From the NCBI RefSeq assembly GCF_000153045.1, contig NZ_CH724160.1, positions 373,142 through 437,141 of the forward strand: a stretch of DNA of 64,000 nucleotides, read 5' to 3'. Origin of the DNA: Synechococcus sp. WH 5701. GTDB taxonomy: Bacteria; Cyanobacteriota; Cyanobacteriia; PCC-6307; Cyanobiaceae. Positions 46,743 to 50,346 of this stretch are shown here, piece by piece; the first letter of the stretch is position 1, and every line of letters begins with the position of its first letter. The position numbers and the translations under genes are program-made. Under the pieces are notes generated by a model. It saw nothing but the letters and a program-made list of their open reading frames with translations, ran no database searches and was not told the DNA's origin.

Positions 46743-46814
46743 GGCCCAGGGCATGGTTCCGGGGCTGCTGGGGACTCGGCGCGTAGATTCATCTCAGCCT
46801 GACCGCCTGCCGAC

Positions 46815-47918
46815 GTGCCCCTGCTTTCAGCTCTTCGGCGACTGGGCCAGCAGCCAACGATGCAGGACTGGCCGGGGCTGATCGAGGCCTACCGGCGCTG
46901 GTTGCCGGTGAGTGAGGCCACGCCGGTGATCACCCTGCGGGAAGGCGCGACTCCCCTGATCCCAGCGCCGGCCGTGGCGTCACGGCTGGGCCGGGGCATC
47001 AAGGTGTTTCTCAAATATGACGGCCTCAACCCCACCGGCAGCTTCAAGGACCGGGGGATGACGATGGCGGTGAGCAAGGCGAGGGAAGCCGGCGCCGAGG
47101 CCGTGATCTGCGCCAGCACCGGCAACACCAGTGCGGCAGCCGCCGCCTATGCCCGCCGCGGTGGCATGCGCGCCTTCGTGCTGATCCCCGACGGCTACGT
47201 GGCCCAGGGCAAGCTCGCCCAGGCCCTCGTGTATGGCGCTGAGGTGCTGGCGGTGAAGGGGAACTTCGATCGTGCCCTGGCCATCGTGCGAGAGGTGGCT
47301 GACACCTATCCGGTCACGTTGGTGAATTCGCTCAACCCCTATCGGCTGCAGGGGCAGAAGACCGCCGCCTTCGAGGTGGTGGATGCCCTCGGTGACGCCC
47401 CCGACTGGCTCTGCATCCCCATGGGCAACGCCGGCAACATCAGTGCCTACTGGATGGGCTTTCAGGAGTACCGACAGGCGGGCCACAGCCGGCGTCTTCC
47501 CCGGATGATGGGCTTCCAGGCCAGTGGCTCGGCGCCTCTGGTGCTGGGTCACACCGTGGAGCAACCCGACACGATTGCCACGGCGATCCGCATCGGCAAT
47601 CCCGCCAACCGCGAGAAGGCGCTCGCCGTGCGTGAGCAGAGCGGCGGCAGCTTCCACGCCGTCACCGACCAGGACATTCTCGAGGCCTATCAGTTGCTCG
47701 GCCGGGAGGAAGGTGTGTTCTGCGAACCGGCCAGCGCCGCCTCTGTGGCGGGGCTGCTGCAGCAGGCCGAGCAGGTGCCCGCCGGCGCCACGGTGGTCTG
47801 CGTGCTCACAGGCAACGGTCTGAAGGATCCCAACACCGCCATCGACAACTGCGATGGGGCCTTCCATGCCGGCCTGGCCCCTGAGGTGGATGTGGTGGCC
47901 AAGGTGATGGGCTTCTAA
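46815..47918 (+). CDS. thrC: Threonine synthase
   Basis: 367 residues from GTG 46815 (ATG 46860 possible). PLP enzyme: [22 protein letters not shown] contains the PLP lysine. [34 protein letters not shown] (phosphate loop) and [12 protein letters not shown] follow. It converts O-phosphohomoserine to threonine. It lies directly before the putative origin region, with a strong terminator 34 bases after its stop. Confidence 0.95.
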
Positions 47919-47952
47919 GCCCGACAGACAAGCTGGACCCAACAACCCAGTG

Positions 47953-47986
47953 AGCCCCATGCCGGAACCTCCGGTGTGGGGCTTTT
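47953..47986 (+). terminator. Intrinsic terminator of thrC
   Basis: AGCCCCA-TG-CCGGA-acc-TCCGG-TG-TGGGGCT followed by TTT: a GC-rich interrupted stem with a T-run, 34 bases after the thrC stop. It insulates the putative oriC from incoming transcription. Confidence 0.85.
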
Positions 47987-47989
47987 CGC

Positions 47990-48386
47990 TGGGGTGTCAG
48001 TGCGCAAAGCGTCCACGGGAAAAACAGCCCCAGCACGGGGAGAACAGGGGCAAATAGAGCACCCCTGAGTTGCTCACGTTTTCCCCAGATCCGGGAAAGA
48101 GTGGAAAACCTTGATTTCAGTCATCATTCCGCCAGGCGTTCCTCAGTTCAGATTCAAAAAAATCCAGATCGGAACTGAGCTGTAGAAGTTTTCCGCGTTT
48201 TCCCCAGCCCCTACGACTACGGATTGGATTTATTTTCTTCTTGATCAATCAAAAACCAGTAACAGGATTGGGGAATAGGCAGGGGGAAAGCGGATCGAGC
48301 AGGCTTGTGCTCGTTGCGCTTGGCTCAGTGGTGTGGAAGCGTGGTGGGGCCCTTGGCGGGCTTGTCCTCTCTGGAGTCATGTCGCG
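47990..48386. other. Putative chromosomal replication origin (oriC) upstream of dnaN
   Basis: The only long gene-free stretch of the window. It holds DnaA-box-like TTTTCC motifs close to the cyanobacterial TTTTCCACA: TTTTCCCCA at 48079-48087 and 48198-48206, TTTTCCACT on the minus strand at 48108-48100, TTTTCCGCG at 48189-48197 and TATTCCCCA on the minus strand at 48277-48269. There is an inverted repeat CTCAGTTC/GAACTGAG (48142-48149, 48172-48179) around an A-run. An A+T-rich tract with TTGATCAA lies at about 48228-48262. The dnaN promoter must lie here too. No tRNA or long reading frame is seen. Confidence 0.7.
48142..48179. repeat. Inverted repeat in the putative origin
   Basis: CTCAGTTC (48142-48149) and GAACTGAG (48172-48179) pair over 8 bp. 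After one mismatch the pairing GAT/ATC extends inward (48151-48153 with 48168-48170). The loop contains seven A in a row. Confidence 0.7.
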
Positions 48387-49529
48387 ATGAAGCTGGTCTG
48401 CTCTCAGGCGGAACTGAGCGCCAGCCTTCAGCTGGTCAGTCGTGCCGTGGCTTCACGCCCCACTCACCCAGTGCTGGCCAACGTGCTGCTCACCGCCGAT
48501 GCCGGCACTGGCCGGCTCAGCCTCACCGGCTTCGATCTCAGCCTCGGCATCCAGACCAGCCTGCCCGCGTCCGTGGAGAGCAGCGGCACGATCACCCTGC
48601 CTTCGCGCCTCTTCGGTGAGATCGTGGCGCGGCTCTCCAGCGACAGCCCGATCAGCCTGAGCTGTGAGGAAGGCCAGGAGCAGGTGGAGATCACCAGCCG
48701 CTCCGGCAGCTACCAGATGCGCGGACTCTCCGCCGAGGACTTTCCCGATCTGCCCCTCGTTCAGACCGGAACTCCCCTTCGCCTGCAACCGGACGCCCTG
48801 GTGAAGGGGCTGCGGGCCACCTTGTTTGCCAGCAGCGGCGATGAGGCCAAGCAGTTGCTCACCGGCGTCCACCTCGGCCTGGCCGATCAGGATCTGGAGT
48901 GCGCCGCCACGGACGGGCACCGCCTCTCGGTGCTCCGCCTCGAAAAGGCCTTCTCCGGCGCCGAGGACGGCAGTGAGCCCTTCGCGGTCACGGTGCCGGC
49001 CCGTTCCCTGCGGGAACTGGAGCGGTTGCTCTCCGCCTGCAGCAGTGACGACCCGGTGAGCCTGTACTGCGACCGCGGGCAGGTGGTGTTTCTCTGGGCC
49101 GACCAGGTGCTCACCAGCCGCAGCCTTGATGGCACCTACCCCAATTACCGGCAGCTGATCCCCGATCGCTTCAGCCGAACCCTGGAACTCGATCGCCGTG
49201 GCTTCGTGCAGGCCCTCGAGCGGGTGGCGGTGCTGGCGGACCAGCACAACAACGTCGTCAAGCTCAGCAGTGATCCCGCTAGCGGACAGCTGCACATCAG
49301 CGCCGATGCCCAGGACGTGGGCAGTGGTTCCGAAGATCTGCCGGCGGTGATCAGTGGTGATCCGATCGAGATCGCCTTCAACGTCCGCTACATGCTCGAT
49401 GGACTCAAGGCGATGACCCCCGAGCGGGTGGAGTTGCGCTGCAACGCACCCACAACCCCTGCGGTGCTGACCTCCGCGCAGGATCCCACCTTCACTTACC
49501 TGGTGATGCCCGTTCAGATCCGCAGCTGA
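48387..49529 (+). CDS. dnaN: DNA polymerase III sliding clamp, beta subunit
   Basis: 380 residues from ATG 48387. The beta-clamp pattern is clear: MKLVCSQAELSASLQLVSRAV, the first-domain end YQMRGLSAEDFPDLP, ATDGHRLSVLRLE, DGTYPNYRQLIPD and the C-terminal YLVMPVQIR clamp tail. It forms the ring that tethers the replicative polymerase. It lies directly next to the putative oriC, as in other cyanobacteria. Confidence 0.97.
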   Translation: MKLVCSQAELSASLQLVSRAVASRPTHPVLANVLLTADAGTGRLSLTGFDLSLGIQTSLPASVESSGTITLPSRLFGEIVARLSSDSPISLSCEEGQEQVEITSRSGSYQMRGLSAEDFPDLPLVQTGTPLRLQPDALVKGLRATLFASSGDEAKQLLTGVHLGLADQDLECAATDGHRLSVLRLEKAFSGAEDGSEPFAVTVPARSLRELERLLSACSSDDPVSLYCDRGQVVFLWADQVLTSRSLDGTYPNYRQLIPDRFSRTLELDRRGFVQALERVAVLADQHNNVVKLSSDPASGQLHISADAQDVGSGSEDLPAVISGDPIEIAFNVRYMLDGLKAMTPERVELRCNAPTTPAVLTSAQDPTFTYLVMPVQIRS

Positions 49530-49533
49530 GGCC

Positions 49534-50346
49534 GTGACCCTCCCCGAGCAACTGCTGCTCAGCGACCTGCTGCGGCGCCGGGTGCGCTGCAACCAGGGCA
49601 TTGACCATGGCGCTGGTCTGCAGGGCTGGATGCACCCGCCTGTGCACCGCCTGCTGGGCTGGGTGAGCAGGCCTTCGGCCTTCGGAGCCCGCCGGCTGGT
49701 GTGGAGGCTCAATCAGCTGCGCGGGCTCACCGACCAGGAAGCTCTGGTGCAAGGGGATCCCGCAGACACCGACCCCGCCACCCTGGAGCGCTTGCCCACC
49801 CTCTTCGAAGCAGCCCTGCTCGGGAGCGACAACCAACTGCTGGGTGTGATTGCCGACGCCAACGTGGAGTTGCGCAGCGGCCGCATCCTCGACTACCTGG
49901 TGGCCCGCAGCGATCCGCGTCTGCCCGGCAGCAGCCGTTGGCTGCTCTCACCCGAGCGCATCGTCGATCAGCAGCCCGGGCAGGTGATGACCGCGCTACA
50001 GGGCCTCGATGATCTCCCCCTGGCCCGCGCCAGTGTGCGTCAGGAATTTCTGCGGCGCTCCCGCCGTTGGCGGGAGCAGTTCGAGGAGGTGGGCGGGCGC
50101 TTTGAGGAGCGGCTGGAGGGCTGGCTGGAGGAGCCGCCCTGGCAGGAGCCTGATCCCCTCGACCCCGAAGCCCGCCTGGAGGATCCCCCCCTCAACCGGC
50201 TCGACGAGCAGGAAGACTGGGATGACCCGGAGGCCTGGGGGGAGCCCGTAAGGGAGGTTTCGGCCCAGCCACGGCGCCGGGCAGCGCGAAACCGGCCACA
50301 GCCCCACGAGGCCGATCCGCTCGAGCCGGACGATCCTTGGATCTGA
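49534..50346 (+). CDS. PRC-barrel-like protein of the origin cluster
   Basis: 270 residues, 4 bases after dnaN. Two PRC-barrel-like units: LSDLLRRRVRCNQGIDHGAG with LLGWVSR at the start, and LLGSDNQLLGVIADANVELR with GRILDYLVARSDPRLPGSS and LLSPERIVD in the middle. The C-terminal third is acidic and charged, with DPEAWGEP-type stretches. PRC barrels occur in photosynthetic reaction-centre H subunits and RNA-processing proteins; the role here is unknown. Position between dnaN and purL is conserved in picocyanobacteria as I recall. Confidence 0.8.
   Translation: MTLPEQLLLSDLLRRRVRCNQGIDHGAGLQGWMHPPVHRLLGWVSRPSAFGARRLVWRLNQLRGLTDQEALVQGDPADTDPATLERLPTLFEAALLGSDNQLLGVIADANVELRSGRILDYLVARSDPRLPGSSRWLLSPERIVDQQPGQVMTALQGLDDLPLARASVRQEFLRRSRRWREQFEEVGGRFEERLEGWLEEPPWQEPDPLDPEARLEDPPLNRLDEQEDWDDPEAWGEPVREVSAQPRRRAARNRPQPHEADPLEPDDPWI

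Follow-up and report, generated by a model that had tools for sequence, protein, structure and literature searches.

Does the long gap upstream of dnaN in this GC-rich picocyanobacterial genome contain the chromosomal replication origin, and if so, through which sequences would DnaA open it? In the window (the whole stretch of 64,000 nucleotides that was analyzed; GC 0.676), the gap separates dnaN from a gene that we take, from its sequence, to be thrC (Table 1). An initial annotation had placed a probable origin here, between a strong terminator on the thrC side and dnaN on the other, amid A+T-rich tracts and a gene order typical of picocyanobacteria. These surroundings are borne out. A stable hairpin follows thrC, dnaN starts at the far edge of the gap, and the seven 150-bp stretches with the least GC in the window all fall here (minimum, 0.43). 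Likewise, of 80 named dnaN loci, 77 have thrC and 77 have purL on the same strand as dnaN. A promoter scan of positions 46800 to 49600 gave no match, and neither did Rfam and tRNA searches of the whole window. Based on the evidence below, positions 47919 to 48386 are very probably the chromosomal origin (oriC) of this Synechococcus/Cyanobium-type picocyanobacterium.

Table 1. Features of the probable origin region and its flanking genes, in window positions
Feature	Positions	Strand	Basis or remarks
thrC (threonine synthase; name presumed), upstream neighbor	46815..47918	+	ORF listing; thrC homologue upstream of dnaN in 77/80 named loci
Intergenic region, very probably oriC; 468 bp, GC 0.55	47919..48386	.	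Sequence; skew change point
thrC terminator hairpin	47950..47990	+	-28.3 kcal/mol, z -5.5
Box-like TTTTCCCGT, weak	48015..48023	-	Motif scan
DnaA box TTTTCCCCA, 1 mismatch to TTTTCCACA	48079..48087	+	Conserved in same-genus loci
DnaA box TTTTCCACT, 1 mismatch	48100..48108	-	Conserved in same-genus loci
Inverted repeat around A-run	48142..48179	.	12-nt arms 48142-48153 / 48168-48179, one mismatch
Tandem DnaA box a TTTTCCGCG, weak, abuts box b	48189..48197	+	Alignment, scan
DnaA box b TTTTCCCCA	48198..48206	+	Alignment, scan
GC-rich 4-bp spacer GCCC	48207..48210	+	Alignment
Four putative DnaA-trios CTA CGA CTA CGG	48211..48222	+	Trio strand 3'-GAT GCT GAT GCC-5'; centers A, C, A, C
A+T-rich tract 3' of trios	48223..48255	+	Presumed site of unwinding and helicase loading
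Box TATTCCCCA facing the A+T tract, then six strict NAN trios (48269-48298)	48269..48277	-	Scan
Box-like GCTTCCACA	48332..48340	-	TGTGGAA at most 120 bp from dnaN in 69/124 origins
dnaN (DNA polymerase III beta clamp, 380 aa)	48387..49529	+	ORF, homologues

The non-coding DNA between 47990 and 48386 holds a cluster of DnaA-box-like motifs. Five TTTTCC/TATTCC motifs had been reported; the cluster stands, and the number has to be raised to six T[TA]TTCC sites over both strands, at 48015(-), 48079(+), 48100(-), 48189(+), 48198(+), and 48269(-). Dinucleotide shuffles yield 0.76 on average (standard deviation, 0.83), 0 of 2,000 shuffles reach six, and other 397-bp stretches of the window (outside 47500 to 48900) hold at most one site each. 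A perfect copy of TTTTCCACA, the usual cyanobacterial DnaA box (PMC4674748), is absent from the oriC region. Two further elements were considered and rejected. The inverted repeat around an A-run that had been described is present, and its folding is only moderate (z -2.4); it is probably incidental, because the 12-nt arms occur in the window only, and are lacking at the other eight of the nine same-genus loci compared. The box at 48269(-) was considered as a second, facing basal unwinding system (BUS, a DnaA box with DnaA-trios). A scan finds this type of box with strict NAN trios in some same-genus origins only, and the arrangement occurs in 13 of 124 origins versus 31 of 124 for a control on the opposite strand of the same stretch. 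Nearer to dnaN, a CGTTGCG block (in the area of window positions 48290 to 48345) lies at most 150 bp from the gene in 86 of 124 origins.

Neither the box list nor the inverted repeat of the initial annotation constitutes the putative functional core, which is the tandem box and trios at 48189 to 48222 and had been overlooked. The core was found by aligning 30 upstream regions, in which box b is followed by four bases and then CTACGACTACGG. In the window it reads TTTTCCGCG-TTTTCCCCA, a 4-bp spacer, and CTA-CGA-CTA-CGG, and its position matches that of the DnaA-box/DnaA-trio BUS of its relatives. On the complementary strand, CTA reads 3'-GAT-5', which is the DnaA-trio consensus. The two adjoining boxes are co-oriented, with two mismatches in TTTTCCGCG and one in TTTTCCCCA; box a has at most two mismatches in 64 of 121 origins, and box b at least two mismatches to TTTTCCACA in 81 of 121. 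The exact pattern TTTCCNCANNCCCTACNNCNAC occurs once per genome in 49 of the 201 family genomes, many of the matches reading CTACTACTAC, whereas the reversed control pattern has a single match over all the genomes together. From this arrangement, we infer that the core is a DnaA-trio element.

The closest comparison is with Bacillus subtilis, which opens oriC via two co-oriented DnaA boxes adjoining trios (PMC8287927). Like the B. subtilis BUS (boxes 6/7 plus trios; PMC8287927 and PMC10721633), the core has a pair of co-oriented boxes, a short spacer (of 4 bp here), a G-first repeated trinucleotide, A+T-rich DNA beyond, and a DnaA with identical contact residues. Unlike that BUS, trios 2 and 4 are C-centered and the block contains four G-first trios; the boxes are cyanobacterial and degenerate, and dnaA is not located beside oriC. 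The published BUS search rule requires a run of three or more 3'-NAN-5' trios no farther than 16 bp from a box (PMC8287927). It fails after both box a and box b in the window, where trios 2 and 4 are cytosine-centered; in our own implementation, it holds at the core site in 35 of 124 origins and fails in 89. Read instead as amine-bearing 3'-G[A/C]N-5' trios, a form derived from what PMC10721633 reports, GAT GCT GAT GCC conforms throughout. In the B. subtilis structure, the trio guanine is held by Arg202 and Glu228 and the adenine by Asn187, with Ile190 and Ile193 around the third base (PMC10721633). The same source describes near-native strand separation with C at the center of trio 1 and slower separation with G, T, or U, as well as faster growth and more frequent initiation in cells with C centers in trios 1 to 3 than in those with G or T. 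Its authors credit the amino group common to A and C.

Within the phylum, the region resembles the oriC of Synechococcus elongatus PCC 7942, Anabaena 7120, and Cyanothece 51142 (as far as PMC4674748 describes them) in lying upstream of dnaN, in its TTTTCC-type boxes, and in having dnaA elsewhere. Unlike those three, it has TTTTCCCCA-type boxes, no perfect TTTTCCACA, C-centered trios, and a 67% GC genome. The S. elongatus chromosome is reported to replicate from an oriC near dnaN (PMC7198777), and S. elongatus DnaA to unwind its cognate box/trio scaffold in vitro (PMC8287927). The likeness between that functional BUS and the core is one of phylum and of dnaN-linked oriC.

We assembled dnaN upstream regions from two sets. 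The first came from the 184 of 201 family genomes in which dnaN was found, of which 68 were used (30 returned as loci and 38 hand-chosen, mostly one per genus); the second comprised 80 of 264 loci, from which L179 was dropped (its match begins at residue 11). Removing 23 identical duplicates from the 147 upstream regions left 124 non-identical origins. One locus (L191) sits on a contig titled as a Bifidobacterium breve metagenome-assembled genome; it carries a picocyanobacterial-type dnaN that is 76% identical to the window's, and the contig is probably mislabelled. The trio element was located by pattern in 123 of the 124 regions and by eye in the remaining one (L130), whose boxes are so degenerate that the pattern misses them; the tree counts therefore omit it. 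The other 123 origins, with four trios each, gave 492 trios. Our first pattern for locating the element admitted T/G at the centers of trios 2 and 3, and its sites agreed with those of a neutral pattern except in L198, L202, and L205, where the register shifted. For L198 and L205 (tandem frame), we set the register by hand from the aligned spacer and counted both as exceptions; L202 kept its first-scan register.

Across these origins, the first base of the trio is G in 483 of 492 trios, the center is A or C in 480 (the exceptions being nine T and three G), and the third base varies freely. All 123 origins have A at the center of trio 1. The element lies 135 to 223 bp from the dnaN start (121 origins) and always equally far from box b. 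Of 32 dnaN regions from outside the family, 21 contain one or more boxes with CTA-type trios, the other 11 yielding no such element, and genomes there carry TTTTCCACA-TTTTCCACA-GCCC-CTACTACTACTG. None of these outgroup elements has C among the first three centers, so that an A center is probably ancestral and C derived. Nature thus appears, from these alignments, to use a 3'-G[A/C]N-5' trio code.

We considered whether the origin does lie at dnaN while CTACGACTACGG is a site for some other protein, such as a dnaN regulator, that tolerates T/G there. The trio function is itself read from sequence, and trios 2 and 4 of the window break the published NAN rule, both of which leave room for such a protein. 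Yet a regulator of dnaN would have to account for a spacing that is fixed relative to box b and variable relative to the dnaN start, and for a constraint with period three across all four units (first base G, second A or C, third free). That constraint fits the DnaA pocket described in PMC10721633 (trio strand 3'-GATGCTGATGCC-5'), and relatives outside the family carry a perfect CTACTACTAC after tandem boxes. We therefore regard a site for another protein as improbable and retain the reading of the core as DnaA-trios.

If the trios are functional, the replacement of A by C at their centers could reflect selection for the amino group or GC mutation pressure alone. The number of C centers does rise with the third-position GC content of dnaN (GC3; Spearman 0.65, 124 origins), as mutation pressure predicts. 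However, the same pressure also predicts top-strand T-to-C changes, which would produce G centers, and A↔G changes are the commoner class at neutral sites. In 54 four-fold degenerate dnaN columns, A↔C, A↔G, and A↔T changes number 145:326:319, and in the intergenic DNA of 37 close pairs they number 234:437:223. On the dnaN-based tree, the trio centers changed instead by A↔C 41 or 42 times and by A↔G once, with three A↔T, two C↔G, and two or three C↔T changes. The third bases of the same trios show the opposite behavior, with 42 to 44 C↔T changes and four A↔C changes. Fisher tests of A↔C versus A↔G at the centers against these nulls gave p values of 1e-18 (four-fold sites) and 4e-17 (intergenic DNA); the nulls and tests used the 121-origin set and an earlier tree. 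Since two of the centers were open to T/G in our first locating pattern, we checked trio 4, whose center lies outside that pattern, separately, and found 16 A↔C and 0 A↔G changes (p = 1e-8). Given that the centers exchange A and C despite a neutral excess of A↔G, GC pressure can push while selection picks C, and an origin of the C centers in mutation pressure alone seems quite improbable.

These observations lead us to a claim that we consider likely: C-centered trios belong naturally to the origin code and have evolved repeatedly; picocyanobacterial origins conform to 3'-G[A/C]N-5' in all four trios, trio 1 admitting adenine only; selection recognizes the center base by its amino group, as expected from the B. 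subtilis structure; and the NAN rule misses functional trios in GC-rich bacteria. The natural restriction to A and C agrees with the prediction from B. subtilis trio chemistry.

The wider question is whether strand asymmetry across the chromosome agrees with an origin at this site. A minimum of the cumulative GC skew had been expected here; in the window, the cumulative GC skew is still falling past dnaN. This raw measure cannot decide for or against the site because it is weak and irregular in the sampled stretches of the genome, and we dropped it in favor of a gene-strand-corrected skew of A versus T at third codon positions (AT3), measured in sampled stretches only. On contig C8, AT3 skew is positive in all eight stretches left of dnaN and negative in all 12 to the right. 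Contig C9 shows the opposite order, negative in nine of 10 stretches up to 830 kb and positive in eight of eight from 1.08 Mb onward, with values near zero at 895 and 990 kb; the reverse switch lies around 0.90 to 0.91 Mb (more broadly 0.9 to 1.0 Mb, the adjacent DNA falling outside the sampled stretches). A closed genome of the same genus (G102) repeats the pattern, with positive AT3 in seven of eight stretches left of dnaN (160 kb to 1.30 Mb), negative AT3 in eight of eight to the right (1.52 to 2.66 Mb), and mixed values near position 1 and beyond 2.8 Mb, near the presumed terminus. Change-point scans of the window (44 genes), C8 (332 genes), and G102 (275 genes) each gave 0 of 5,000 permutations; in all three sets, the best change point falls just before thrC (46739/46814 in window positions) and the thrC/dnaN gap ranks second. 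A switch at the site and an opposite one at the terminus are thus seen in AT3 over the sampled stretches, not in raw GC skew, and the placement of the origin next to dnaN gains support both from this switch and from the conserved box-spacer-trio element upstream of the gene. That the region is a mere DnaA-regulated dnaN promoter with a box cluster, the true origin or several origins lying elsewhere, would suit the weak raw GC skew and the report that some cyanobacteria use multiple origins without DnaA (PMC7198777), but it is highly improbable given one sharp AT3 switch at thrC/dnaN on C8 with a single opposite switch on C9, the recurrence of the thrC/dnaN switch in G102, and the V-shaped skew that PMC7198777 reports for most species of its clades C to G, which may include this genus.

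Some cyanobacteria are described as no longer DnaA-dependent (PMC7198777), and a DnaA-type oriC calls for a complete initiator gene. The genome contains a complete dnaA (C9:899810, E = 6e-68, 484-aa ORF). It lies at 899.8 kb (899810 to 900292, locus L002), where the strand asymmetry flips back near the terminus, and all 29 closed family genomes have dnaA 0.29 to 0.48 of a chromosome away from dnaN (genome sizes partly rounded). We rejected the idea that this position is itself selected; the control gene recA is likewise confined (0.09 to 0.24), and the position is simply conserved. The trio-contact residues N187, I190, I193, R202, and E228 (B. subtilis numbers) are identical in the genome's own DnaA, as is the arginine finger R264, and all six are identical in 32 of 32 family DnaA proteins. 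In G102 (contig C1), 16 further matches to the DnaA domain (PF00308) are scattered along the sequence, 11 of them with equal E value and frame length; our guess is that these are perhaps transposon ATPases.

Together, these results suggest the following model. The region would serve as the single bidirectional origin of the chromosome of a high-GC picocyanobacterium. DnaA, encoded far off near the terminus, would bind the box pair at 48189 to 48206, with the other boxes supplying additional DnaA. From box b, its AAA+ domains would reach past the 4-bp spacer to one of the strands of CTA-CGA-CTA-CGG, where each pair of protomers is predicted to pocket the first two bases of a trio, G and then A or C. 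DnaA on the trios would then pull apart the A+T tract at 48223 to 48255, allowing the helicase to be loaded. Within this scheme, C could replace A in trios 2 to 4 because both offer the amino group needed by the conserved Asn (B. subtilis N187), which G and T centers would lack. We consider this explanation as a whole, an oriC with a DnaA box pair, G[A/C]N trios, and unwinding of the A+T tract, to be very likely.

The locus is therefore an expected origin that was correctly spotted, carrying a known unwinding element in variant form. Deviant trios without a central adenine had been suspected (PMC8287927), and an engineered cytosine was reported to work in B. subtilis, with the remark that homologues might recognize a range of sequences (PMC10721633). 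Our literature search, which covered mostly papers outside subscription, returned no earlier report of natural C-centered trios. The more than 120 natural origins compared here offer an evolutionary counterpart to the engineered change, with about 41 A↔C changes versus one A↔G and with unchanged DnaA contact residues. Trio evolution, as reconstructed on the dnaN tree, supports and extends the recent structural result. It also suggests that origins in GC-rich genomes can be sought with a broader rule, and it makes a sharp, position-specific prediction, namely that trio 1 must stay adenine.

Genome-wide, TTTTCCMCA has 30 matches versus nine for the reversed control pattern, and two of them lie in the oriC region within 120 bp of each other. 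The remaining 28 include one more close pair, at C9:699750/699772. There, in a gap between two genes far from oriC (C9:699754-699799; about 2247 to 2300 of locus L136), three DnaA-box-like sites, TTTTCCACA, TTTTCCCCA, and TTTCCCCA, are spaced about 20 bp apart. One of the flanking genes presumably encodes a CbiX-type chelatase, which it resembles. The pattern of the array, one such pair of overlapping matches, is found in nine of nine same-genus genomes, with 0 control matches, which makes the array a candidate DnaA titration or regulatory site.
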